Made by a program: the position numbers and the translations under genes
From: Oscillibacter sp.
GTDB lineage: Bacteria; Bacillota; Clostridia; Oscillospirales; Oscillospiraceae
Reading direction: 5' to 3'
DNA length: 46,540 nt
NCBI GenBank assembly: GCA_017482345.1
Contig: JAFUNB010000015.1
Location: forward strand, 1 to 46,540
In this document: one piece after another, positions 24,860-46,035 of the stretch
Position numbering within the stretch: position 1 is the stretch's first letter
How the letters are laid out: every line of letters begins with the position of its first letter
The notes under the pieces: model-generated
Database searches by the model: none
What the model saw: the letters and a program-made list of their open reading frames with translations, nothing else
What the model was told of the DNA's origin: nothing

Positions 24860-26227
24860 TCAATATCCGTTTACGATCAGATCCAGTACCTTACTGGCCA
24901 CACTGCCGGCCACGCTGCTGCCTCCGCCGCCGTTTTCCACCAGCACCACGAAGGCATAGGGTGTCCGCTCTCCCCGCAGGAAGCCGGTAAACCAAGCGTG
25001 GGGCAGCTGGTCGATGCCCACCTCCGCCGTGCCGGACTTGGCGCACAGGTCCATGTTGGGAAAGCGCTGGGTGCCGTAGGTCTTTTCCACGTTGGCGGCC
25101 ATCAGGTCCGCCAGCTGCTCCGCTGTCTGGGCGGAGATGAGGGTATCCGTCTTACCCGGCAGCTTCGGCAGAGACGGCACGCCCATGGCGGATACCGTCT
25201 TTTGCACAAGGTACGGCTCCGCCGCCTTGCCGCCGTTTGCGATGGCGCCCATATACACCATCAGGGCGCAGGGGTTCACCTGGTCGTGGTGCTGACCCAC
25301 ACCGGCCCAGCCCAGCTGGCCGTCCGTCAGAGTTTCCCAGGAAAAGGTACCCGCCGCCGTGGGCAGTCCGCTGACGGAATAGCTGTCCGTCAAACCGGCC
25401 TTTTCCGTATACCGCTTCAGGGTCTCCGCCCCAAGTTCCTTTGCAATCAGGGCAAAGGCCACGTTGCAGCTGTTGGCGAAGGCGTCGCCGATGTGCTGCT
25501 GGCCGTGGGTTCCGGCGCAGACGATGGTCTCGTCCCCCAGCTGTACCTTGCCCTCGCACAGCCAGGTGCGGCTGTCCAGTCCCGGCAGCTCCTCCAGCGC
25601 CGCCGCCAGCGTCACCGTCTTATAGACGGAGCCGGGAATGAACGTGGAGGTGAGGAAGCGGTTCAAATACGCACCCTCATAGCGGTCGTTGGTCTCGATG
25701 TCCGCCGGAACGTGCAGAGGGTCGTAGCTGGGGGCGGACACCATACACAAAATCTCGCCGGTCTTATAGTTGTATACCGCCACCGTGCCGCTCTTTCCGC
25801 CCAGTGCCTGATAGGCGGCGTAGTTGTAGCGGGCGTCGATGGTCAGATACAGGTCGTTGCCCCGGTCCGCGCCGAAGGCGCCGTTTACAAGGCTGTAGCC
25901 GGTCAGCTTGTCGGCAAAGGCGTTCAGGGCGCCGGTGCCAATGCTGCCCTGCAGGTCGCCAACCGCGTGGAGGGTGGCCTTGCGGACAGTCTCATCGTCG
26001 TAATAGGTGCGCTTGCCTCCCTCCGCCGTGGTGAGGACGTCGCCGTCCCGGTCCAGCACGGTGCCGCTGGCCAGAACGCCGCTGGAGTCATACAGATGGC
26101 GGTTGAAGGCCGAGGAGGCCCACTGGCCGCCGCTGGTGAAATACCGGAACAGAAACACGCACATGCCCGCCGCCAGCAGCATGGCCAGCACGCTGCAGAC
26201 GAAGGCTCTTCTCTCAATCTTCTTCAT
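24860..26227 (-). CDS. Class B penicillin-binding protein (PbpA/FtsI type transpeptidase)
   Basis: 455 residues: a short cytoplasmic tail, one membrane anchor (about 8-28), a reduced dimerisation region and the transpeptidase domain (about 145-455). The three penicillin-binding motifs are S200-V-Y-K203 (PGSVYK), SCN (253-255) and KSG in CAKSGTAEVG. It crosslinks peptidoglycan and needs a SEDS glycosyltransferase partner; that partner is the gene just upstream, whose end overlaps this start by 14 bases. The short N-terminal half is like actinobacterial and clostridial PbpA rather than long FtsI. Confidence 0.94.
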   Translation of the reverse strand: MKKIERRAFVCSVLAMLLAAGMCVFLFRYFTSGGQWASSAFNRHLYDSSGVLASGTVLDRDGDVLTTAEGGKRTYYDDETVRKATLHAVGDLQGSIGTGALNAFADKLTGYSLVNGAFGADRGNDLYLTIDARYNYAAYQALGGKSGTVAVYNYKTGEILCMVSAPSYDPLHVPADIETNDRYEGAYLNRFLTSTFIPGSVYKTVTLAAALEELPGLDSRTWLCEGKVQLGDETIVCAGTHGQQHIGDAFANSCNVAFALIAKELGAETLKRYTEKAGLTDSYSVSGLPTAAGTFSWETLTDGQLGWAGVGQHHDQVNPCALMVYMGAIANGGKAAEPYLVQKTVSAMGVPSLPKLPGKTDTLISAQTAEQLADLMAANVEKTYGTQRFPNMDLCAKSGTAEVGIDQLPHAWFTGFLRGERTPYAFVVLVENGGGGSSVAGSVASKVLDLIVNGY

Positions 26228-28034
26228 CGTCCGCCTCCTTTTCCCAGTCGAAGGGCCGGTTCAGCGCCTCAGTCCGGCGGATGGCCTCCTCCGTCAGCTT
26301 GCGCTGGGCGCGGCCGCGGATGGCGAAGCTGGCGTTCTGGCGGGTGTCCATGGCCTTCAGGAAGGCCAGCAGGCCCCAGGAGGACATCATGGCGGAGCCG
26401 CCGTTGGACACGAAGGGGAACGTGACGCCGGTCAGGGGCAGCAGGTCCACGGAGCCGAACACGTTCAGACAGGTCTGGAACACCAGCAGAGACCCCGCCG
26501 CGCAGGCGGCGATGGTATAGAAGCTGGAGCGTCCCACCCGGATGGCCCGGACGGCGAAAAACGCCAGTGTGATGATGGACGCCACCGCCAGCAGAGCGAT
26601 GAGCAGCCCCCACTCCTCGCACAGCATGCCGAACACCAGATCCGTGTCCGCCGCCGGGATGCGGTGGAGCCAGCCGTTTCCGGCGCCCATGCCGATGAGA
26701 CCGCCGGAGGCCGCCGCGGACATGGTGCGGGTCTGCTGGTAGCCGGTGGTGGAGGCAGCCTCCCACGCGTGGCCCCAGGAGGCAAAGCGGCTGAGGATAT
26801 AGGGTTTGAATTTTACGATGATGCCCGCGCCGAACACCGCGCCGCCGCAGATGAGGGACAGCGTGGCGAAGTCGCCGGAGCGCAGGTACGCGATGACAAG
26901 GAAGGTCACGAAGAAAATGGCTGCCGTGCCGAAGTCGCTCATCAGACCCAGAAGGCCGATGCATACGCCGGTCAGTACGATGAACAGCGTGATATTTCTC
27001 CGGCGGAACAGACGCTCCAGTGTGGCGGAGCCGGCGAAGATATAGCAGATTTTGGCGATCTCCGAGGGCTGGAAGGACATGCCGCCGATGGAGATCCAGT
27101 TGACGGCGCCGTATTTGGCCGTGCCCAGCACCAGCGTGATACCAAGCAGGCCGATGGCCCCTGCCGCCATGAGCCAGCGGATCTTCTGCACCCGGCTCAG
27201 GTCCCGCAGGAACAGGCCCAACACCAGAAACAGGATCAGACCCAGCAGAATCGCCATAAACTGTTTAAAGAGGCTCCCCGGCGCGCTGGAGGCCGTGACG
27301 GCCAGCGACAGCGTGGAGAGGAAGAAAGCGATGGTCTCCAGCTCGAAGCCCACGCAGCGGGTGCACCACAGCACCACATAGTAAAGCCACATGACGAGAG
27401 TCAGCCCCAGGAAGGCCAGCGGGATCATGACGGAGGCCTCCTGCCCCGCCGCCACGATCAGCTGCAGGCAGGTCAAAGCCTGAAACAGCGTCAGCCACAG
27501 GAAGGAGGGCCAGATGGCGGAGGGGCGCTCCGCTTTGCGCTTTTCGTCCAGCTCCACCCGCTCCTCCACGGTTTGGGGCAGAAACACCAGCGGCACGCCG
27601 CCAAGCAGAATGGTGTCTCCCATCTTCACCGGGGCGGAGTCCTCCACTTCCCTGCCGTTCACCACGGTGCCGCCCTTGGAGCCAAGGTCGTAGATGGTCC
27701 ACTGCTCGTCCTCGCCCCGGCACAGGGCCGCGTGCTGGCGGGAAATGCTGGGGTAATTGAGCCGGACATCCACCGCGCCGCTGCGGCCGATGATATTCTC
27801 CCAGTGGGTCAGCGGAATGGACGCGCCGTTGGGCAGACTCAGCTGGCCCCAGGTCTCCGGCGTGTGGGGGATCCGCAGCAGAGCGCGAATGGCCCGGAAC
27901 AGGATCAGCACCGCCAGTACCGGAAACAGGAAGCGGACAAAGGCCATATACCATTCGCCCGCCAGCGGGTGCGCCGCCAGAAACGCCGTCAGCACATCCA
28001 TAACGCCCTGCAAAGCGTCTCGCGCCTGTATCAT
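26214..28034 (-). CDS. FHA domain fused to FtsW/RodA/SpoVE (SEDS) glycosyltransferase
   Basis: 606 residues. A membrane anchor (about 27-48) is followed by a forkhead-associated domain (about 63-153) with the key residues GR (83-84), S.SRQH (96-101) and LGSKGGTVVNG (117-127). A complete SEDS membrane domain (about 170-580) has WISIGGMSFQPSEIAKI, the SDFGTA segment and LTGVTFPFVSNGGSAM. SEDS proteins polymerise lipid II into glycan strands with a class B PBP. FHA domains bind phosphothreonine, so activity or placement may depend on a PrkC/IreK-type kinase. AAGGAGG precedes the ATG. First gene of a three-gene minus-strand operon. Confidence 0.95.
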   Translation of the reverse strand: MIQARDALQGVMDVLTAFLAAHPLAGEWYMAFVRFLFPVLAVLILFRAIRALLRIPHTPETWGQLSLPNGASIPLTHWENIIGRSGAVDVRLNYPSISRQHAALCRGEDEQWTIYDLGSKGGTVVNGREVEDSAPVKMGDTILLGGVPLVFLPQTVEERVELDEKRKAERPSAIWPSFLWLTLFQALTCLQLIVAAGQEASVMIPLAFLGLTLVMWLYYVVLWCTRCVGFELETIAFFLSTLSLAVTASSAPGSLFKQFMAILLGLILFLVLGLFLRDLSRVQKIRWLMAAGAIGLLGITLVLGTAKYGAVNWISIGGMSFQPSEIAKICYIFAGSATLERLFRRRNITLFIVLTGVCIGLLGLMSDFGTAAIFFVTFLVIAYLRSGDFATLSLICGGAVFGAGIIVKFKPYILSRFASWGHAWEAASTTGYQQTRTMSAAASGGLIGMGAGNGWLHRIPAADTDLVFGMLCEEWGLLIALLAVASIITLAFFAVRAIRVGRSSFYTIAACAAGSLLVFQTCLNVFGSVDLLPLTGVTFPFVSNGGSAMMSSWGLLAFLKAMDTRQNASFAIRGRAQRKLTEEAIRRTEALNRPFDWEKEADDEED

Positions 28035-29235: not shown

Positions 29236-30276
29236 TCACTTGAGAAAAATGCGCTTGCCGCCCCGGTATTCTCCGACACTGCCAATGCGCTGGGCGCTGG
29301 GCACGCAAGTCTGCAGCTCCGCAAACAGCGCCTGCGCATCCTCCGGATGGACGGCCATCAGCAGTCCACCCGCCGTCTGGGGGTCGTACAGCAGATCCTG
29401 ACGACACAGCTCCACTCCCCCCGCGTCCACGCCCTCCTCGGCGAAGGCGCGGTTGCGGTACATACCCGCCGGCAGGAGGCCCATGCGTGCCAGCTCCACA
29501 GCCTCATCGATCAGGTCGATTTCATTTACCTGCAGCTCCGCCTCCGCGTCGCTGCCCTGCATCATCTCGTACAGGTGGCCCAGCAGGCCGAAGCCGGTCA
29601 CGTCCGTGCAGGCGTGGACCCGGTATTTTACCATGGCGTTCCGGGCCGCCTTGTTGAGGGTGGTCATGAGCCGGTAGGCCAAAACCATGCCCTCTTTTGA
29701 GGTCATGTCCGCTTTGGCGCCCGTGGTCAGCACGCCGATGCCGATGGGCTTCGTCAGCAGCAGAACGTCCCCCGGCTTTGCACCGGCGTTGGTCAGCACA
29801 CGGTCCGGGTGGACAAAACCCGTCACGGCCAGACCGTATTTCGGCTCCTCGTCCAGAATGGTGTGGCCGCCGGTGATGAGGGCGCCCGCCTCGTACACCT
29901 TGTCATAGCCGCCCCGCAGCAGCTGGTGGACGGCCTCCTTCGGCATATCCTCCGGCACCGCCATCACGTTCAGGCACAGCTTCGGCTCGCCGCCCATGGC
30001 GTACACATCGCTGAGGGCATTGGTGGCCGCGATCTGGCCAAACAGGTAGGGATCGTCGGCGATGGGCGGGAAGAAATCCACCGTCTGCACCAGCGCCAGC
30101 TCGTCTGAAATTTGATAGACCGATGCGTCGTCGCTCTTGTCAAAGCCCACCAGCAGATTCGGGTCGTGGTGGACGCGGATATCCTCCAGCAGCTGGGCCA
30201 GCACGCCGGCGCCCACCTTGGCGCCGCAGCCGGCACACTTGGCCAATTTTGTCAGTTTTACTTCGTTTTCCGCCAT
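29236..30276 (-). CDS. selD: Selenide, water dikinase
   Basis: 346 residues. It makes selenophosphate from selenide and ATP. The catalytic loop KCAGCGAK has Cys14, Cys17 and Lys20; Cys17 and Lys20 match the essential E. coli residues, while E. coli Cys19 is Ala here. The enzyme is the Cys form, not the Sec form. Glycine-rich ATP sites follow (TVDFFPPIADDPYLFGQIAATNALSDVYAMGG; ACTDVTGFGLLGH). It starts two bases before the yqeB stop region ends (gene gap 1 base), last in yqeC-yqeB-selD. With these partners and no selA/selB in view, the likely use is the labile selenium cofactor of molybdenum hydroxylases, though selenoproteins elsewhere are possible. Confidence 0.97.
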   Translation of the reverse strand: MAENEVKLTKLAKCAGCGAKVGAGVLAQLLEDIRVHHDPNLLVGFDKSDDASVYQISDELALVQTVDFFPPIADDPYLFGQIAATNALSDVYAMGGEPKLCLNVMAVPEDMPKEAVHQLLRGGYDKVYEAGALITGGHTILDEEPKYGLAVTGFVHPDRVLTNAGAKPGDVLLLTKPIGIGVLTTGAKADMTSKEGMVLAYRLMTTLNKAARNAMVKYRVHACTDVTGFGLLGHLYEMMQGSDAEAELQVNEIDLIDEAVELARMGLLPAGMYRNRAFAEEGVDAGGVELCRQDLLYDPQTAGGLLMAVHPEDAQALFAELQTCVPSAQRIGSVGEYRGGKRIFLK

Positions 30277-30277
30277 A

Positions 30278-31072
30278 TCAACGCTCCAATACGCCGCTCA
30301 GGTTCAAAATTGCCTCCAGCACGCCGCCGCCAACGGCAAGTGCCTTATCGCTGGCGCAGTAGCAGTGGCCGATCTCGCAGCGGGGGTCGATGTCACCGGC
30401 CTTCATGCCCTTGTGGACGGGGGTACCGTCCGCCAGAATACCCCGCAGGATTCCGTCCAGCGTGCAGACCATAGGCTCGCCGCCCACAGTGGCGGCGATG
30501 TCCCCCATCTTCACCTGGGCGCCGATCTCCAGCAGCTGGCGGAACTCGCCGTCCGCCGGAGCGCGCAGCACCCGCTCACCGGCAAAGCCGCCGATGAGGC
30601 CGGGGATGCCGGTGTTGGGCAGGGAGCCGCCCTGATAGATCGCGCGGCCCAGATAGTGGCCCCGCATGGTCTCCACCACCGCGTGGCAGTCCTCGCCGGC
30701 GGTAAAGCCGGGACCGACGCCGATGACCACCGGTGCGTCCGTGATGCGGGTCCCCAAATTTTCCTTGGCCAGAATGGCGTCCACCACCGCGTCCGGCTTC
30801 AATGCCGGGATACACGCTCCCGCCGGATCGGCCAGCACGGGAATGACACCGCTTTTCAGAAGTTCAGCGGCCTCTTCCGCGTTTGCGGCCTTTCGGGCCG
30901 TCACGTTCTCCACCACCGTCTCGCCGTGGACAACGGCCTGGGAAAAGCAAACGGTGCGGCGAATGGAGGTGGGCCGCTCCACCTCCGTCATCACCACCTG
31001 CATCCCCGCCCGCCAAAGCCGGAGGGCGATGCCGGTGGCCAGATCGCCGGCGCCTCTGATCACAACACGCAT
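30278..31072 (-). CDS. yqeB: Selenium-dependent molybdenum hydroxylase system protein YqeB
   Basis: 264 residues from ATG 31072 (AAGGAG ten bases ahead); the longer frame upstream overlaps yqeC. It begins MRVVIRGAGDLATGIALRLWRAG, a Rossmann-like start, and contains GVIPVLADP, VVIGVGPGFTAGEDCHAVVETMRGH and GRAIYQG. This is the EF2563/YqeB family, which with YqeC and SelD marks genomes carrying selenium-dependent molybdenum hydroxylases (known family association). It probably acts in making or inserting the selenium ligand of the molybdenum site. The start overlaps the yqeC end by 13 bases, so translation is coupled. Confidence 0.93.
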   Translation of the reverse strand: MRVVIRGAGDLATGIALRLWRAGMQVVMTEVERPTSIRRTVCFSQAVVHGETVVENVTARKAANAEEAAELLKSGVIPVLADPAGACIPALKPDAVVDAILAKENLGTRITDAPVVIGVGPGFTAGEDCHAVVETMRGHYLGRAIYQGGSLPNTGIPGLIGGFAGERVLRAPADGEFRQLLEIGAQVKMGDIAATVGGEPMVCTLDGILRGILADGTPVHKGMKAGDIDPRCEIGHCYCASDKALAVGGGVLEAILNLSGVLER

Positions 31073-31740
31073 GTTCCGCAGACTCCTTTCCGCAGGGCCG
31101 CCGCGGTAAAGGGCCGGTCCAGCAGCGCGCCGCACCGGCGCGCCCACTCCCACTGCTCCACCGCGTCCGCCTGATTGAATACATATCGGTCCGCCAGCGA
31201 TTCCGCCCGCAGCACCCAGGCCACAAGCTCCGGTGTGGCGGGCGTATCCACAGTCACGCCGGCCAGTTCCGCAAATCGGTCCGACCGGTGGGCCGCCTCC
31301 CGGATGGTTCGTCCGAAGCCGGAAAGGCCCACCACGCAGATGGTTTGCCCCGCCTCGACCGGGATGACCGGCTCGTGGCTCTCATGGGCCTTCAGGGGCA
31401 ATCCCGCCGAGCCGTCCGCCTCCACCAGCACATAGTCCGCCAGCCGCGCCAGCCGGGCCATGGAGAGCTTCGGTGCCGTCAGCTTGCCGGTATCGCCGAA
31501 AGGACTGCCCACGCAGACCAGCTTCCGCTCCGCCAATGCGTCGGAAAGGGCCGATTCTGTGGGCTCTGTCAGCGTTTCCACACCGGAAAAGGGGAAGATC
31601 TTCGTAGTGGTGGTCAACACCACACGGTGGCCCGCCGCTGCCAATTCGCTGCCCAGCGTCCGCAGCAGCGTGGTCTTTCCGCCGCTGCCGATGACCGCCG
31701 TAACGCCCGGCCGGATCGCCATTCCCTCTGCCATCGCCAT
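31060..31740 (-). CDS. yqeC: Selenium cofactor biosynthesis protein YqeC
   Basis: 226 residues. A P-loop, GSGGKTT (18-24), is followed by VLTTTTKIFPF and VLVEADGSAGLPLKAHESHEPVIP, the YqeC signature. It is a probable nucleotide-binding enzyme of the selenium-dependent molybdenum hydroxylase cofactor route. First gene of yqeC-yqeB-selD. The ATG has AAGGAGG nine bases ahead. Its promoter (31804-31775) is overlapped by a perfect palindrome (31760-31783) related to sites at the moaA and modA promoters, which implies repression by a shared regulator. Confidence 0.93.
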   Translation of the reverse strand: MAMAEGMAIRPGVTAVIGSGGKTTLLRTLGSELAAAGHRVVLTTTTKIFPFSGVETLTEPTESALSDALAERKLVCVGSPFGDTGKLTAPKLSMARLARLADYVLVEADGSAGLPLKAHESHEPVIPVEAGQTICVVGLSGFGRTIREAAHRSDRFAELAGVTVDTPATPELVAWVLRAESLADRYVFNQADAVEQWEWARRCGALLDRPFTAAALRKGVCGTCVL

Positions 31741-31759: not shown

Positions 31760-31783
31760 CGTTATTCTTTCAATAGAATAACA
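31760..31783. promoter_or_regulatory. ModE-like operator A at the yqeC promoter
   Basis: Arms CGTTATTCT (31760-31768) and AGAATAACA (31775-31783) around a 6-base spacer; the inner eight bases of each arm form a perfect inverted repeat. It overlaps the -10 of the yqeC promoter, so a bound protein would block transcription. The left arm is identical to that of site C at modA. Confidence 0.7.
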
Positions 31784-31804
31784 TTATGCATTTTCCACTG
31801 TCAA
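31775..31804 (-). promoter_or_regulatory. Promoter of yqeC-yqeB-selD
   Basis: -35 TTGACA (31804-31799) and -10 TATTCT (31780-31775) with an 18-bp spacer and an upstream TGT extended element. The -10 lies inside operator A. Confidence 0.65.
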
Positions 31805-31834
31805 GTCCGCGCCAAAACAGCATAGCCGCTCGTC

Positions 31835-31862
31835 TTGACATTTCATGGGAACATGGTATTAT
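31835..31862 (+). promoter_or_regulatory. Promoter of moaA-moaC-MoeA-like
   Basis: -35 TTGACA (31835-31840) and -10 TATTAT (31857-31862), spacer 16; TATAAT at 31860-31865 with spacer 19 is an alternative. Operator B lies just downstream. Confidence 0.75.
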
Positions 31863-31875
31863 AATATATCATAAG

Positions 31876-31899
31876 CGTTTATCTCATTTGAGTATCACG
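31876..31899. promoter_or_regulatory. ModE-like operator B at the moaA promoter
   Basis: Arms CGTTTATCT (31876-31884) and AGTATCACG (31891-31899) around CATTTG. It matches site C at modA in 21 of 24 positions. It lies between the expected transcription start and the ribosome binding site, fitting a roadblock or start-site repressor. Confidence 0.7.
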
Positions 31900-31915
31900 G
31901 TAAAGGAGGCCCGCC

Positions 31916-32860
31916 ATGCTGGATCAATGCGGAAGAACCATTGACTATCTGCGTCTTTCGGTAACAGATCTGTGCAATTACCGCTGCCAGTACTGTATGC
32001 CCGCAGACGGCGTGGTCAAGCGCCCCCATACCGAGATCCTGACTCTTGAGGAGTTGGTTGAGATCTCCGAAGCCTGCATTGCCTGCGGTGTAAAGAAAAT
32101 CCGCTTGACAGGAGGAGAACCTCTGGTACGCCGGGGCATCGTGGATTTGTGCCGGCAGCTGCGTCAGCTGCCCGGTCTGGAGGAGCTGTGTATCACCACA
32201 AACGGCGCTCTGCTGCCCCAACTGGCCCAGCCTTTGCGGGACGCCGGCGTGGACCGGCTGAACATCAGCATGGACACCCTGCGGCCTGACCGCTTCGCCT
32301 CCATCACCCGCCTCGGCTCTCTGGAGACCGTGCAGCGGGGCATCGAGGCCGCTCAGAAGGCCGGCTTTGACCGACTGAAATTTGACGCCGTACTCATCGG
32401 CGGCTTCAACGACGATGAGATCGGCGATTTTCTGGAGCTGACCCGGACGCACCCCTGGGAGATCCGCTTCATCGAGCTGATGGCCATGGGCCCCTGCGCC
32501 GCGTGGGACAAATCCTGCTTTATCTCTGCGGATACTGTGCTGGAAAGGTATTCTGCTTTACAGCAAATCGAGTCTCAGGGCGTGGCCCGGCGGTATCGTT
32601 TGCCCGGCGCCGCGGGCACCATCGGACTCATCTCCCCCGTCAGCCACGAGTTCTGCAGCCAGTGCAGCCGCATCCGCGTGACGGCGGACGGCAAGCTGAA
32701 GGGCTGTCTCCACGCACGGGAGGAGATCTCCCTGCGGGGCCTGCACGGGCAGGCGCTGCAGGACGCCATCTGCCAGGGTATTTTGCAAAAGCCCAAAAAG
32801 CACCATCTGGCCGAACGCCCCAGCGACACCCCCCGCAACATGAATGAGATTGGAGGCTGA
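31916..32860 (+). CDS. moaA: GTP 3',8-cyclase
   Basis: 314 residues. It is a radical SAM enzyme that, with MoaC, turns GTP into cyclic pyranopterin monophosphate, the first step of molybdopterin synthesis. The N-terminal cluster is C20-x3-C24-x2-C27 ([14 protein letters not shown]). LTGGEPLVR and the C-terminal second cluster [20 protein letters not shown] bind the substrate. The C-terminal GG tail is absent, as the protein ends EIGG after a Lys/Arg-rich stretch, so it is in fact present as the last two residues. AAAGGAGG precedes the ATG. First of the moaA-moaC-MoeA-like set, under operator B. Confidence 0.97.
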
Positions 32861-32861
32861 C

Positions 32862-33341
32862 ATGGACGGTTTGACTCACTTCAATGAACAGGGCCGGGCC
32901 CGCATGGTGGATGTGACGGAAAAGGCCGTCACCCAGCGGACGGCCATTGCCGCCGGCGAGATCCATATGGCGCCGGAAACCATGGAGCGCATCAAGGCCG
33001 GCACCATGAAAAAGGGCGACGTGCTGGCTGTGGCCCAGGTGGCCGGTATTCAGGCCGCCAAGCACAACTGGGAGCTGATCCCCATGTGTCATCCCCTGCC
33101 CCTCACCGGCATCGACATCGCCTTCTCCCTGTCTGACGAGCCCTGCATGGTAGAGATCCGCGCCACCGTGTCCTGCACCGGCGTCACCGGCGTGGAGATG
33201 GAGGCGCTGACCGCGGTTTCCGTGGCGGCACTGACCATCTACGACATGTGCAAGGCCGTGCAGAAGGATATGCAGATCACCAACATCCGCCTGCTGGAAA
33301 AGCTGGGCGGCAAGAGCGGGCACTACATCGCCCAGGACTAA
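32862..33341 (+). CDS. moaC: Cyclic pyranopterin monophosphate synthase
   Basis: 159 residues, the usual length. It contains [47 protein letters not shown] and [29 protein letters not shown], which carry the active-site residues of MoaC. It completes cPMP formation after MoaA. ATG 32862 lies one base after the moaA stop with GGAGG ahead, so the two are coupled; an upstream in-frame ATG inside moaA is not needed. Confidence 0.97.
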
Positions 33342-33356
33342 CCATCGAGGTGGCTT

Positions 33357-34376
33357 ATGAAACTGATTCAGACTGTAGACGCCGTTGGCCACGTTCTGTG
33401 CCACGATATGACTCAGATCATCCGGGGCGAGTATAAGGACGCCCGCTTCCGCAAGGGCCATGTGGTCCGCGAGGAGGATATCCCCGTCCTGCTCTCCATG
33501 GGTAAGGAGCACCTGTATGTCTGGGAGATGAACTCCAACATGGTGCATGAAAACGACGCCGCTGAGCGGCTGTATCCCCTGTGCGCCAATGAAAACATGG
33601 AGCGCAGCCAGGTGAAGGAGGGCAAGATCGAACTGACCGCCGCCTGCGACGGTCTGTTCCGCGTCAACTCCCAGCGGCTCATCGCTGTCAACACCGTGGA
33701 TGACATCATGATCGCCACCCGCCACGGCAACACCGCCGTCCGCAAGGGCGACAAGCTGGCCGGTATGCGGGTCATTCCCCTCATCATCGAGGAGGAAAAG
33801 CTGGCCGCCGCCGAGGCTGCCGCAGGCGATACTCCCCTGCTGGAGCTGCTGCCCTATGTGAAGAAGACCGCCGCCATCGTGGCCACCGGCAGCGAGGTGA
33901 AGAAGGGCCTCATCAAGGACACCTTCACCCCCGTTGTGAAAGACAAGCTGGCCGCCTACGGCATCGAGACCATCTCCATCACCTATTCCGGTGACGGTGT
34001 GGAAAACGTGGCCGCGGCCATCGCCGAGGCCCGCAAGACCGGCGCGGACATCGTGCTGTGCACCGGCGGTATGAGCGTGGACCCCGATGACAACACCCCC
34101 GGCGGCATCAAGGCCTCCGGCGCCCGCATCGTCACCTACGGTGCCCCCGTCCTGCCCGGCGCCATGTTCCTGCTGGGCTACTATGAGGACGGCACCGCGG
34201 TCATGGGTCTCCCCGGCTGCGTCATGTATGCCGGCGCCACCATCTTCGACCTGGTGCTGCCCCGTGTGGCTGCCGGCGTTGAGGTGAACAAGGCCGATCT
34301 GGTGGGTTACGGCGAGGGCGGACTGTGCCTTGGCTGCAAGCCCTGCCACTGGCCCAACTGCCCCTTCGGCAAATAA
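33357..34376 (+). CDS. MoeA-like molybdopterin-binding protein with C-terminal Cys motif
   Basis: 339 residues, shorter than MoeA (about 400). The middle and C-terminal part (about 165-315) is a MoCF-biosynthesis/MogA-like fold: AAIVATGSEVKKG, LCTGGMSVDPDDNTP and GLPGCVMYAGATIFDLVLPRVAAG. The N-terminal part (1-160) lacks the typical MoeA domain I-II pattern. The extreme C-terminus has four Cys in CLGCKPCHWPNCPFGK, suitable for metal or Fe-S binding. Proteins of this type are annotated as molybdopterin-binding in Clostridia. Role inferred: molybdenum insertion or holding the cofactor, perhaps for the selenium-dependent hydroxylases. It starts 15 bases after moaC. Confidence 0.88.
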   Translation: MKLIQTVDAVGHVLCHDMTQIIRGEYKDARFRKGHVVREEDIPVLLSMGKEHLYVWEMNSNMVHENDAAERLYPLCANENMERSQVKEGKIELTAACDGLFRVNSQRLIAVNTVDDIMIATRHGNTAVRKGDKLAGMRVIPLIIEEEKLAAAEAAAGDTPLLELLPYVKKTAAIVATGSEVKKGLIKDTFTPVVKDKLAAYGIETISITYSGDGVENVAAAIAEARKTGADIVLCTGGMSVDPDDNTPGGIKASGARIVTYGAPVLPGAMFLLGYYEDGTAVMGLPGCVMYAGATIFDLVLPRVAAGVEVNKADLVGYGEGGLCLGCKPCHWPNCPFGK

Positions 34377-34377
34377 C

Positions 34378-34413
34378 CAAAAGCGCGCCGGAGCTTACCG
34401 GCGCCGCTTTTCG
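34378..34413 (+). terminator. Terminator between the MoeA-like gene and modA
   Basis: A hairpin with a 7-bp upper stem (34385-34391 with 34398-34404, 6-nt loop) and a lower A/T stem across one bulge, ending in TTTT. modA follows with its own promoter. Confidence 0.7.
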
Positions 34414-34418
34414 GCAAC

Positions 34419-34442
34419 CGTTATTCTCGTTTGAGTATCACG
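34419..34442. promoter_or_regulatory. ModE-like operator C at the modA promoter
   Basis: Arms CGTTATTCT (34419-34427) and AGTATCACG (34434-34442) around CGTTTG. It matches operator B in 21 of 24 positions and shares its whole left arm with operator A. It ends 11 bases upstream of the -35. Confidence 0.7.
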
Positions 34443-34482: not shown

Positions 34483-34502
34483 AAATGAAAGGAATGTGTT
34501 GT

Positions 34503-35345
34503 ATGAAAAGGTATTTGTCTCTCCTGCTGGCCCTGTGCCTGGCTCTGACCCTGACCGCCTGCGGCGGCAAGAAGGCTGCCCCCGCAGAAAAAGAGGAAGC
34601 TGCCGAACCCGTTGAAATCACCGTGTTCGCCGCCGCCTCCATGCAGGAGTCCCTGAACGCCGCCATCGAGGGCTACAAGGCCGTGGCGCCCAACGTCACC
34701 GTGGTCACCACCTATGATTCCTCCGGCACCCTGAAGACCCAGATCCAGGAGGGCGCTCCCTGCGACCTGTTCATCTCCGCCGCTCCCAAGCAGATGAACG
34801 CGCTGGACGGCTCCCTGAAGGGCGACGCCGACAAGAATCCCGACGGTCTGGACTTCGTGGTGGAGGGCACCCGTTTGAACCTGCTGGAGAACAAGGTGAC
34901 GCTGTCCGTGCCCGAGGGCAACCCCGCCGGCATCGAGAGCTTCGACCAGCTGGCAGAGCTGCTGCTGGGCGGCGACGTGATGCTGGCCATGGGCAACAGC
35001 GACGTGCCTGTGGGCCAGTACACCCAGAAGATCTTCACCTACTACGGCATCGACGAGGCTGCCATCGCCCACAAGCTGACCTACGGCTCCAACGTGAAGG
35101 AGGTCACCACCCAGGTCTCCGAGGCTGCTGTGGACTGCGGCATCATCTACGGCACTGACGCCTTCTCCGCCGGCCTGACGGTGGTGGACAGCGCCACCGC
35201 CGAGATGTGCGGCCAGGTCATCTATCCCGCCGCCGTCATCAACAGCGGCGAGCAGAGCGAGGCCGCCCAGGAATTCCTCGCCTATCTGCAGACTCCCGAG
35301 GCCCTGGCCTGCTTTGAGGCTGTGGGCTTCTCCCCCATGGTTTGA
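34503..35345 (+). CDS. modA: Molybdate-binding lipoprotein ModA
   Basis: 280 residues from ATG 34503 (GAAAGGA ahead). A lipoprotein signal ends in LTLTAC, then a Lys/Glu linker and the periplasmic-binding fold: VFAAASMQESLNAAI, YDSSGTLKTQI, GAPCDLFISAAPKQMNAL and DCGIIYGTDAF. These are the ModA oxyanion-binding segments (AAASM, SSGTL). It captures molybdate (or tungstate) at the cell surface for ModBC. Its own promoter and an operator upstream point to control by molybdenum. A hairpin separates it from modB. Confidence 0.96.
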   Translation: MKRYLSLLLALCLALTLTACGGKKAAPAEKEEAAEPVEITVFAAASMQESLNAAIEGYKAVAPNVTVVTTYDSSGTLKTQIQEGAPCDLFISAAPKQMNALDGSLKGDADKNPDGLDFVVEGTRLNLLENKVTLSVPEGNPAGIESFDQLAELLLGGDVMLAMGNSDVPVGQYTQKIFTYYGIDEAAIAHKLTYGSNVKEVTTQVSEAAVDCGIIYGTDAFSAGLTVVDSATAEMCGQVIYPAAVINSGEQSEAAQEFLAYLQTPEALACFEAVGFSPMV

Positions 35346-35408: not shown

Positions 35409-36074
35409 TTGGACTGGTATCCCCTTTTGAACTCCCTGCGGATCGCCGCCATCTCCACGGCGGCAGTCTTCTTCCTGGGCATTTTTGCCGCCCATTATAT
35501 CGCAAAGCTGCCCCGGCTGGTGAAGGGCGTGCTGGACGTGGTGCTGACGCTGCCGCTGGTGCTGCCGCCCACGGTGGTGGGCTGGCTGCTGCTGGTGCTG
35601 CTGGGCCCCAAGCACCCCATCGGCGCGTGGGTGCTGGACACCTTCGGCGTGCGGCTGACCATGAACTGGTGGTCCGCCATCTTCGCCACCATCGTGGTGG
35701 CCTTCCCCCTCATGTACCGCACCGCCCGCGGCGCCTTCGAGAGCTTCGACCAGAATCTGGCGGACGCCGGCCGCACGCTGGGCCGGTCTGAAACCTGGAT
35801 TTTCTGGCGGGTGCAGATGCCCGTTTGCAAGCAGGGCATCCTGGCCGGCACAGTGCTGGCCTTTGCCCGGGCGCTGGGTGAATACGGCGCCACCAGCATG
35901 GTCGCCGGCTACACCCCCGGCCGCACCGCCACCATCTCCACCACCGTCTATCAGCTCTGGCGCACCAACGACGATATCGGCGCTCTGAAATGGGTGCTGG
36001 TGAACATCGCCATCTCCGCGGTGTTTTTGCTGGCAGTGAACCTGCTGGAGAGCCGGAAAGGAGGCCGCCGATGA
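35409..36074 (+). CDS. modB: Molybdate ABC transporter permease ModB, TTG start
   Basis: 221 residues with five to six membrane segments. The permease motif that docks the ATPase is visible (NLADAGRTLGRSETWIFWRVQMP), and so is the ModB signature ARALGEYGATSMVAGYTPGRT. The start is TTG 35409 (LDWYPLLNSLRIAAIST), with GAGGTGA ahead; no ATG is available. It passes molybdate from ModA through the membrane. Its stop overlaps the modC ATG (ATGA). Confidence 0.96.
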   Translation: MDWYPLLNSLRIAAISTAAVFFLGIFAAHYIAKLPRLVKGVLDVVLTLPLVLPPTVVGWLLLVLLGPKHPIGAWVLDTFGVRLTMNWWSAIFATIVVAFPLMYRTARGAFESFDQNLADAGRTLGRSETWIFWRVQMPVCKQGILAGTVLAFARALGEYGATSMVAGYTPGRTATISTTVYQLWRTNDDIGALKWVLVNIAISAVFLLAVNLLESRKGGRR

Positions 36075-37114
36075 GCCTCACCGTCCGAATCAAAAAGCAG
36101 CTGGGCGACTTCTGTCTGGAGGCGGACTTCACCGCCGAACAGGAGACGCTGGCCCTGCTGGGCGCCTCCGGCTGCGGCAAGAGCGTCACGCTGAAATGCA
36201 TCGCCGGTATCCTGCAGCCCGACGAGGGCCTTATCCAGCTGGATGGGCAGACCCTCTACGACAGTGCCGCCGGCGTCTGCCTGCCGCCCCAGAAGCGGGG
36301 CGTGGGCTATCTGTTCCAAAACTACGCCCTCTTCCCCAACATGACCGTCCGGCAGAACATCGCCGCGGCGGTGACGGACAAGAGCCGCCGCCGGGCCGTG
36401 GCGGAGGAAAAGCTGCGGCAGTTCCAGCTGGAACCTCTGGCGGACCTGAAGCCCGCCCAGCTCTCCGGCGGCCAGCAGCAGCGCACCGCGCTGGCCCGTA
36501 TTCTGGCCTCGGAGCCCCGGGCCATTCTGCTGGACGAGCCCTTCTCCGCGCTGGACAGCTATCTGAAATACCAGATGGAGCTGGAGCTGACGGAGATGCT
36601 GGAGCGCTTCTCCGGCCCCATCCTCTTCGTCACCCACGATCAGGGCGAGGTATTCCGGGCCTGCCGGCGGGTGTGCGTCATGGATCAGGGCCGGACCCAG
36701 GGCGTCCTCACCCTCCGGGAGCTGTTCCACGCGCCGGGCACCCAGGCGGCCGCCCGCCTGTCCGGCTGCAAAAACCTCGCCGACGCCGTGCCGCAGGGCA
36801 CGAAGGCAGTGCTGCCCCAGTGGGGTCTGACCCTGGAATGTGACCGCCCTGTGCCTGCGGATATCCGCTGCGCGGGCATCCGTGCCGACCTGATCTCCCC
36901 CCACCCCCAGGAGGGCGCCAACGCCGTCCCCTGCACGGTGCAGCGGGTCATTCAGGACGTGTTCACCACCATCGTCCTCCTTCGTCCGGAGGGCGCCGCG
37001 GTCGATGCGCCGCCTCTGCGGATGGAAGTCGACCGGGATGCGCGGCAGACTGTGGAAAATGGCAGCCGCCTGACCGTATTCATTCAGTCCAGAGACATTC
37101 TGCTTTTGAAATAA
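36071..37114 (+). CDS. modC: Molybdate ABC transporter ATP-binding protein ModC
   Basis: 347 residues from ATG 36071, overlapping the modB stop; a longer frame upstream lies inside modB. Walker A is GASGCGKS (about 34-41), the Q-loop [11 protein letters not shown], signature [15 protein letters not shown], Walker [13 protein letters not shown], and the switch His is in VTHDQGE. A C-terminal regulatory part (about 230-347) has the MOP/TOBE-like form found in ModC. It powers molybdate import. mogA follows by 11 bases. Confidence 0.95.
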
Positions 37115-37125
37115 GGAGGAACCCC

Positions 37126-37623
37126 ATGTATCGTGCAGCAGTTTTGACCGTCAGTGACCGCAGCTTCCGGGGCGAGCGGCCTGACGCAGGCGGCCCCCTG
37201 ATCGCCCAGATGTTGCGGGACGCCGGATATGACGTGGTGCTCACCGCCATCGTGCCGGATGAGCAGGCGGAGATTGAGGCATTTCTGGCAGATGCGGCGG
37301 ACCGCCGTGTTGCGGAGCTGATCGTCACCACCGGCGGCACCGGCTTCGCCCCCCGGGACGTGACGCCGGAGGCCACCATGGCCGTGTGCCAGCGGATGAC
37401 GCCGGGCATCCCCGAGGCCATGCGCTATGCCTCTATGCAGGTGACGAACCGGGCCATGCTCTCCCGCTCTCAGGCGGGCATCCGGGAGCGGAGCCTCATC
37501 ATCAACCGCCCCGGCTCCCCCAAGGCCGCAAAGGAGAATCTGGAGGCCGTCCTCCCCGCTCTGGCCCATGGACTGGAGATGCTGGCCGGCGGTCCGGCCG
37601 ACTGCGCCAGCCTGACCAACTGA
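37126..37623 (+). CDS. mogA: Molybdopterin adenylyltransferase (MogA/MoaB family)
   Basis: 165 residues, one MoCF-biosynthesis domain: AAVLTVSDRSFRGERPDAGGPLI, VTTGGTGFAPRDVTPEAT and INRPGSPKAAKENLEAVLPAL. These carry the molybdopterin-binding TGGTG and Asp residues. It adenylates molybdopterin before molybdenum insertion. AAGGAGG precedes the ATG, 11 bases after modC, so uptake and insertion genes are one transcript. The MogA/MoaB split cannot be made surely from sequence. Confidence 0.94.
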   Translation: MYRAAVLTVSDRSFRGERPDAGGPLIAQMLRDAGYDVVLTAIVPDEQAEIEAFLADAADRRVAELIVTTGGTGFAPRDVTPEATMAVCQRMTPGIPEAMRYASMQVTNRAMLSRSQAGIRERSLIINRPGSPKAAKENLEAVLPALAHGLEMLAGGPADCASLTN

Positions 37624-41266: not shown

Positions 41267-41272
41267 AGTATT

Positions 41273-41514
41273 GTACCCTGCGGGGCTCGTGATAGATCTT
41301 TTTTTAACCCACATTTCGTTATAAGGGATGCCGGATCAAGTCGTGGTTCGCAGGCCTCCCGGCTGCCGTCTGCGGCTGGATGTTGGAAGCGATGAAGCGC
41401 CTTGGAGGCGACCCACCTGTCCGTAAAGGTGCAGGTTATAACGAGGTCTACACGGCCACTGCGGGGTTCTTGTTTCCTTCAACGGACAAAGCCTTGTGCT
41501 TTGTCCGCTTTTTT
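41273..41514 (+). ncRNA. Structured noncoding RNA (6S-like or raiA-motif-like, family unresolved)
   Basis: No coding frame with a ribosome binding site is present, but the segment has a promoter, dense base pairing and a terminator. The ends pair in steps: 41275-41281 with 41461-41467, GGC 41284-41286 with 41455-41457, CGTG 41288-41291 with 41451-41454, TAGA 41293-41296 with 41447-41450, and CGTTATAA 41317-41324 with 41436-41443. Inside are hairpins 41359-41366/41372-41379 (8 bp), 41398-41402/41406-41410, and CACCT/AGGTG near 41414-41430. The terminator is 41484-41492/41498-41506 plus TTTTTT. The body of about 190 bases and a CTGCGG near each end suit 6S RNA; the branched centre suits the raiA motif better. 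I could not run a covariance search. Confidence 0.65.
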
Positions 41515-45864: not shown

Positions 45865-46000
45865 ACCTCCAGGAAATTTGTCGGTGCGTTCATAAAGGAA
45901 AACCGTCCTTGTGCACAAAGACACAAGGACGGATAGCAAATCATGTTTGCCGCCCTCGGCAGGATTTACGGCTTTCGCCACCTGCTGTCTTTGGAACGCA
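45865..46000 (-). promoter_or_regulatory. L10-type leader of rplJ-rplL with attenuator hairpin
   Basis: The leader carries an 11-bp perfect stem (45932-45922 with 45913-45903, 8-nt loop) followed on the minus strand by TTTTCCTTT, a terminator-like structure before the rplJ ribosome binding site. Upstream pairing segments lie at 45945-45990. Firmicutes rplJ leaders are bound by L10-L12; class assigned from context. Confidence 0.7.
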
Positions 46001-46006
46001 TCAGAT

Positions 46007-46035
46007 ATTATATTCAAGTATTCGACAAATGTCAA
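46007..46035 (-). promoter_or_regulatory. Consensus sigma-A promoter of rplJ-rplL
   Basis: Perfect -35 TTGACA (46035-46030), 17-bp spacer, perfect -10 TATAAT (46012-46007). It lies between rplA and rplJ, so the stalk genes have their own strong start besides any read-through from rplA. Confidence 0.9.

Follow-up and report, generated by a model that had tools for sequence, protein, structure and literature searches.

One palindromic operator before molybdate-uptake, cofactor and selenium-supply genes of Oscillibacter, with a single-domain ModE-type protein as its probable binder

Is the selenophosphate synthetase gene selD co-regulated with the genes of selenium-dependent molybdenum hydroxylases (SDMHs)? 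This question, put by a reviewer in a passage of PMC2276186, is raised anew by a stretch of 46,540 nucleotides from Oscillibacter sp. (assembly GCA_017482345.1, contig JAFUNB010000015.1; hereafter the window). Three 24-bp elements, A, B and C, lie before the yqeC-yqeB-selD, moaA-moaC-MoCF gene and modABC-mogA groups, and a preliminary description of the window had proposed that they form one shared operator under a single molybdenum sensor. In the present study, we conclude with good confidence that A, B and C are operators of one SDMH regulon, bound most likely by a small single-domain ModE-type protein.

The three elements were confirmed letter for letter (Table 1). Operator A consists of CGTTATTCT-TTCAAT-AGAATAACA, operator B of CGTTTATCT-CATTTG-AGTATCACG and operator C of CGTTATTCT-CGTTTG-AGTATCACG. 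As had been described, A and C have the left arm CGTTATTCT in common, B and C are identical at 21 of 24 positions, and A holds a perfect 8-bp inverted repeat (GTTATTCT/AGAATAAC); B differs from the palindrome at four positions. With at most three mismatches allowed, the palindrome matched the window twice (A and C) versus no match in 100 shuffles. A degenerate pattern fitted to A, B and C had only these three forward matches in the 1.63-Mb assembly to which the window belongs, and its reversed control had none. A weak extra site in this assembly (C28:31223, three mismatches) was attributed to chance, as tblastn of the 3-kb locus placed no regulon genes near it, and the looser pattern CGTTAT-N12-ATAACG was dropped as too unspecific, its reversed control often being equally frequent. 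A weight matrix was then trained on 38 sites, comprising every other-genus site listed from a motif scan of the family. With this matrix, A, C and B scored 33.5, 26.3 and 13.0 and took ranks 1 to 3 of about 46,500 window positions; the next position scored 5.6, and the reversed matrix peaked at 7.6.

The upstream regions of relatives were compared, as the preliminary description had recommended. Searching GTDB genome contigs with MoaA yielded 80 loci, and in the Oscillibacter-like loci the elements recurred at the same places. Upstream regions of 300 bp were scored with the matrix at a threshold of at least 8, and loci with a MoaA identity of at least 66% were counted as related. A scoring site was found before yqeC in 10 of 11 related loci, before modA in 11 of 17 and before moaA in 13 of 21, the best match in some of the moaA cases being site A in the shared gap. 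None of 112 upstream regions inside the operons (yqeB, selD, moaC, the MoCF gene, modB, modC and mogA) scored, although these regions are mostly coding and make an easy control, and no upstream region reached 8 with the reversed matrix. In the aligned sites, the arms held 1.8 bits per column and the flanks 0.5-0.9, the conservation within the site being inflated because the rows were selected by motif match. Chance similarity or a repeat family might be read from the motif matches that lie at unrelated genes; the shuffles, the near-zero reversed controls and the recurrence at orthologous promoters make this explanation practically negligible. The same recurrence and controls contradicted a random or unconserved motif, the finding that the preliminary description had named as fatal to its proposal.

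The placement of the elements was consistent with regulation. The promoter scan confirmed that A lies over the -10 of yqeC-yqeB-selD (TATTCT inside the operator) and that B lies past the moaA promoter and before the ribosome-binding site. On the yqeC promoter strand, the arm of A, TGTTATTCT, has the extended -10 form, and GTCAAG of the -35 was kept in all 11 aligned rows (the window plus 10). Operator B starts 13 bp past the moaA -10 and extends almost to the ribosome-binding site AAAGGAGG. For C, the position 5' of modA was recovered; as the scan found no modA promoter, its proposed location upstream of the -35 is at most plausible. The end of C is separated by 42 bp from the first ATG in the modA open reading frame (ORF) as listed and by 60 bp from the ATG at 34503, which by eye is the likelier start. 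The positions of A and B would thus suit a repressor that blocks transcription. As inverted repeats near gene starts, the elements could alternatively act as RNA, in the form of hairpins or a riboswitch, rather than as protein-binding DNA. This appears highly improbable, because operator A contains a -10 and can be transcribed in part at most, the conservation of the outer CGTT/ACG letters goes beyond mere complementarity, and no molybdenum cofactor (Moco) riboswitch of Rfam reached the gathering score in the window, where only a 6S RNA and an L10 leader did. RNA and tRNA explanations were rejected.

Further motif sites in relatives, often paired, were found by a small Se/S-carrier gene and by yedE. 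The carrier was assigned by PF11823 in loci L169, L173 and L174, and a frame of L172 that was first read as a carrier matched no family; in some carrier loci the longest frame opens 5' of the site, and the start was taken to lie downstream of it. YedE, a putative selenium transporter, matched TIGR04112 at 1e-138 to 2e-153, and a Se-dependent xanthine dehydrogenase gene preceded by a site (L176) matched TIGR03311 at E 0. Forty stretches around motif sites in the genus were hand-picked; they represent 16 genomes out of the 47 in the genus that had motif matches and cover a subset of the sites in these 16; by a tally made by eye from maps, 33 of the 40 had molybdenum or selenium genes at the site (yqeC, moaA, modA, Se/S-carrier, yedE or xanthine dehydrogenase, the last in 5). 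Six of the remainder (L298, L305, L314, L315, L329 and L334) had no clear molybdenum or selenium link, and L328 adjoins a mod-like ABC operon. When yedE loci were gathered independently of the motif, a scoring site was present in 25 of 30 loci (29 genomes; one locus, L353, is cut short upstream) and at least two sites in 18, with one of 30 for the reversed control. The window's own assembly, which is 72% complete, yielded no YedE match, and the carrier/yedE and Se-dependent xanthine dehydrogenase operons of the regulon were seen in relatives only. Other genera of the family also had sites at selD with YedF-like, carrier and Se-lyase-like genes (L240 and L251) and, in L273, beside a ModE-like regulator gene. 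These results, together with the co-occurrence described below, supported the shared operator and the proposed content of the regulon. Separately, sites were observed beside PF01497-type periplasmic binding proteins (L247 1628-2818, L257 1954-3024 and L273 99-1157, the last next to the ModE-like gene), which may be additional regulon members for oxyanion uptake, and before a DUF4213/DUF364 gene of putative heavy-metal chelation (L264 682-1614).

Which protein binds the operator? In the modE-modA region of Escherichia coli (3,001 bases), the top position of the matrix was CGTTATATTGTCGCCTACATAACG, 19 bp before modA (score 10.9; next -0.3), which we take to be the ModE operator. The resemblance to the E. 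coli ModE box noticed in the preliminary description was thereby supported. In addition, CGTTATATTGTCGCCTACATAACG fits the ModE operator consensus printed as ATCGCTATATANNNNNNTATATAACGAT in a passage of PMC2700814. The canonical ModE operator consists of two halves of the CGNTATATA type separated by 6 bp; the operators here share its length, its 9-6-9 palindromic spacing and its CGNTAT-type outer halves, whereas their inner trimers are TCT/AGA and not ATA/TAT. The canonical regulon content, modABC plus moa genes, was found, with sites before modA and moaA that recur in relatives, the operator at moaA lying 16 bp before the gene. The candidate here and E. coli ModE have a related winged-helix domain and modA as a target; the regulon here differs in adding selenium genes and a selenium transporter.

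The ModE-type gene linked to such sites, for which the preliminary description had advised a search, was detected in the family. TIGR00637 matched in 14 of 19 genomes (E 3e-13 to 4e-18), and the ModE-like profile A1 matched the solved ModE structures 2ijl, 1b9m and 1o7l at 2e-19 to 2e-14 (1b9m, E 6.9e-15). In relatives, stand-alone frames of 123-130 amino acids occur in L118, L128 and L129, within the range of about 110-135 amino acids of a stand-alone ModE DNA-binding domain, the closest solved relative being 2ijl with 135; elsewhere the longest frame exceeds this size, and the start was assigned by eye or alignment. The stand-alone proteins scanned had only HTH_1 above the Pfam cut-off and no LysR substrate-binding domain. 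Of 200 genomes of the family, 70 had a match to profile A1, 33 carried the strict motif and 28 had both. The ModE-like protein was thus present in 28 of the 33 motif genomes versus 42 of the 167 others (Fisher p 1.4e-10) and, by genus, in 21 of 23 versus 23 of 83 (p 3.5e-8), the p-values ignoring relatedness beyond this collapse to genera; it was present in none of the six genomes with the reversed control pattern. Among 61 genomes of the genus, 40 had both, 7 (own included) the motif only, 5 the protein only and 9 neither (p 7e-4); for those at least 90% complete the numbers were 26, 1, 1 and 3. Motif sites and the ModE-like gene are both present in the genomes of Oscillibacter valericigenes An411 and An860. 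Moreover, in six loci from three other genera (L243, L245, L259, L260, L261 and L268), the site separates the ModE-like gene from a divergently oriented yqeC/yqeB-selD, and L275, picked as promising, holds ModE-like, Se/S-carrier, yqeC, yqeB, selD, yedE and xanthine dehydrogenase genes in one cluster. Autoregulation does not hold as a general rule, since only 13 of 54 ModE-like loci had a site scoring above 10.

Several observations weigh against this interpretation. The matrix is not fully independent, as the search pattern behind its sites owed its form to the window sites and earlier hits, and 16 training stretches without a clear molybdenum or selenium link bring some noise into it. In distant loci (MoaA identity below 66%), sites scored in only 2 of 23 cases for moaA, 1 of 6 for modA, 0 of 1 for yqeC and 1 of 9 for the MoCF gene. 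Five of the 30 yedE loci have no site. In other genera of the family, the 38 sites lie in 35 stretches, of which only 18 adjoin clear molybdenum or selenium genes and 16 have no clear link, some being at periplasmic-binding-protein genes (tallied by eye from maps; L275-L278 are outside the 35, L277 and L278 not being motif stretches and L275 and L276 having been picked as promising). The ModE-like protein stayed below the curated 98.5-bit ModE cut-off in all 19 genomes, 42 of the 70 genomes with a ModE-like protein have no strict motif match, and the 7 motif-only and 5 regulator-only genomes of the genus fall short of a full match. No scoring site was present beside the regulator gene in the nine genus loci looked at. 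Lastly, no regulator was detected in 5 of the 33 motif genomes, including the window's own 72%-complete assembly, where profile A1 at 1e-8 did not find the gene and the regulator search returned just two weak helix-turn-helix matches, in LysR-length frames of 304 and 332 amino acids.

These last absences, and the LysR-length frames, would fit another factor, such as the LysR-type selenium regulator LysR_Se (HrsM), binding the motif, with the ModE-like gene being no more than a member of the same pathway. Passages of PMC5322559 propose YedE, DUF3343 and LysR_Se, the last as a selenium regulator with a LysR-type helix-turn-helix, and a passage of PMC9312934 calls LysR_Se a selenium-specific regulator. 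However, LysR_Se carries a LysR substrate-binding domain and, according to passages of PMC5322559, is associated chiefly with selenocysteine genes. In the six loci it is a ModE-like gene that lies divergently on the far side of the site from the selenium operon, and the motif also retrieves the E. coli site upstream of modA. We consider another factor improbable. The operator itself is real and conserved and points to a joint molybdenum-selenium regulon; its binder is probably a single-domain ModE protein.

The operators, their conservation, the regulon, the co-occurrence and the gene adjacency are read in the sequence; the identity of the binder and its repressing action are our inference. 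Most likely, a single-domain ModE-type winged-helix protein of about 125 amino acids (a MocA-like fusion in some relatives) would bind CGTTATTCT-N6-AGAATAACG as a dimer. It would repress at A, on the -10, and at B, at the transcript start, by blocking RNA polymerase, and operator C may act otherwise. Under its control would stand molybdate uptake, cofactor synthesis, yqeCB-selD, the Se/S-carrier with yedE, and the Se-dependent xanthine dehydrogenase.

In some relatives, the ModE-type domain is part of a larger protein. In L116, L121, L122, L124 and L125 it ends a frame of 312-337 amino acids that opens like a MocA-type nucleotidyltransferase (Pfam-checked in L121, L122 and L124). These fusions are encoded in the relatives' mod/moa clusters, and the fusion of L122 starts 18 bp 3' of a perfect site. 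Their best NCBIfam match, below cut-off, was the DVU_1551 family NTP transferase (NF045665); with a nucleotidyltransferase joined to a ModE-type domain, they are enzyme-regulator fusions. Profile A1 found no fusion in the window's own assembly. In three Lachnospiraceae loci (L060-L062), which carry no scoring site, a ModE match was also obtained in frames about as long, and these are possible further fusions of this kind.

What the protein senses is a separate matter. The preliminary description had named a molybdenum sensor as the controller, and this was not supported: no MOP or TOBE match was found in the ModE-like proteins scanned, whereas the same scan shows TOBE in E. coli ModE, and the MOP family TIGR00638 had no match in any of the 12 genomes of the genus that were searched, the window's own among them. 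Within the reach of this search, the known way of molybdate sensing is therefore unavailable in the window's genus. TIGR00638 did match in 3 of 8 other-genus genomes, in frames of 89-107 amino acids (G053:C17, G216:C4 and G214:C55; L336-L338), and these genomes also hold a ModE-like protein; such stand-alone MOP frames are a possible separate sensor. A Pfam scan of the L336 stretch on the + strand, perhaps the wrong one, gave nothing. Alternatively, the regulator could truly sense molybdate, as the E. coli protein does, by working with a separate molybdate-binding protein or site; the selenium genes would then simply belong to the molybdate regulon. This alternative would agree with these frames and with modABC and moaA being among the targets here. 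It would also agree with the single-domain ModE proteins of Desulfovibrio, whose mod operons, according to passages of PMC545781, have another palindrome, CGGTCACG-N14-CGTGACCG. Like PDB 2ijl, these proteins are stand-alone DNA-binding domains with, in Desulfovibrio, a palindrome at the mod operons; the motif is unlike the one here, and the word selenium is absent from PMC545781. The absence of MOP from the same-genus genomes argues against such a sensor, as does the ModC-like ATPase of the window, in which no TOBE was detected (Pfam at E 0.5), and we rate it clearly below an even chance.

For the single-domain ModE protein, the signal may be molybdate sensed in another way, the molybdenum cofactor or a selenium species, and a signal linked to the cofactor is hinted at by the relatives in which the domain is fused to a cofactor nucleotidyltransferase. 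Tentatively, and with slightly less than even confidence, we propose that a MOP-less ModE reads molybdenum-cofactor or selenium status instead of molybdate directly, and so governs, through one operator, how both elements are taken up and used for SDMHs.

Related systems have been described in part. In passages of PMC2432076, EF2572 of Enterococcus faecalis (ModE, COG2005) lies beside selD and SDMH genes as a neighbour with a wider distribution than SelD. This is likewise a ModE-type gene in a selenium-cofactor neighbourhood, but the passages give no operator or regulon. For the yqeB gene of Clostridioides difficile, PMC11448449 cites a SigL promoter that is predicted to answer to DioR, which is a different control, and passages of PMC6147048 and PMC7701990 hold no such regulon. 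Among the matches listed from the open-access literature, with subscription literature mostly outside, no title or opening of an abstract described ModE-type control of selD, yqeBC or yedE. Our comparison suggests that in this group of gut bacteria one element stands before molybdate-uptake, cofactor, selenium-supply and Se-dependent molybdenum enzyme genes, with one ModE-like controller of both elements. Through this shared operator, YqeB/YqeC, SelD, the putative selenium transporter YedE and the Se/S-carrier protein become linked to the hydroxylase trait, and each gains a testable role. The finding also names a candidate regulator and poses the question of what a ModE without molybdate-binding domains senses.

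The coordinates of the features are listed in Table 1. The gene names of the preliminary description held in NCBIfam and Pfam for SelD, YqeB, YqeC, MoaA, MoaC, the MoCF-domain protein, ModA and ModB; the ModC-like ATPase and the MogA-like protein were recovered as well, both below the curated NCBIfam cut-offs. The true start of yqeB probably lies inside the listed ORF.

Table 1. Operators, promoters and genes of the molybdenum-selenium locus in the window.
Feature	Coordinates	Strand	Remarks
Operator A, CGTTATTCTTTCAATAGAATAACA	31760..31783		5' of yqeC-yqeB-selD; 10 related loci aligned
Operator B, CGTTTATCTCATTTGAGTATCACG	31876..31899		Between moaA -10 and ribosome-binding site; 13 related loci aligned
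Operator C, CGTTATTCTCGTTTGAGTATCACG	34419..34442		Between MoCF gene and modA; 10 related loci aligned
yqeC-yqeB-selD promoter, TTGACA-18-TATTCT	31775..31804	-	-10 inside operator A
moaA-moaC-MoCF gene promoter, TTGACA-16-TATTAT	31835..31862	+	
selD, selenophosphate synthetase	29236..30276	-	TIGR00476 1.8e-121
yqeB, selenium-dependent molybdenum cofactor protein	30278..31153	-	TIGR03309 8.4e-109, match begins at residue 30
yqeC, selenium cofactor biosynthesis protein	31060..31740	-	TIGR03172 1.1e-47; PF19842
moaA, GTP 3',8-cyclase	31916..32860	+	TIGR02666 9.9e-104
moaC	32844..33341	+	NF006870 1.1e-72
MoCF-domain (MoeA/MoaB-like) molybdopterin-binding protein	33357..34376	+	PF00994 1.1e-20
modA	34485..35345 (listed ORF)	+	TIGR01256 5.7e-32
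modB	35409..36074	+	TIGR02141 4.8e-61
modC-like ATPase	36071..37114 (scanned as in-frame ORF from 35990)	+	Best NCBIfam TIGR02142 modC 4.7e-58, below cut-off
mogA/moaB-like molybdopterin adenylyltransferase	37126..37623	+	NF006932 3.1e-41, below cut-off; PF00994 above cut-off

Elsewhere in the window, the 6S RNA lies at 41272-41471 (+) and the ribosomal protein L10 leader at 45888-46012 (-). In addition, a 606-amino-acid frame at 26214-28034 (-) was observed to carry an FHA-type domain followed by an FtsW/RodA-like domain.

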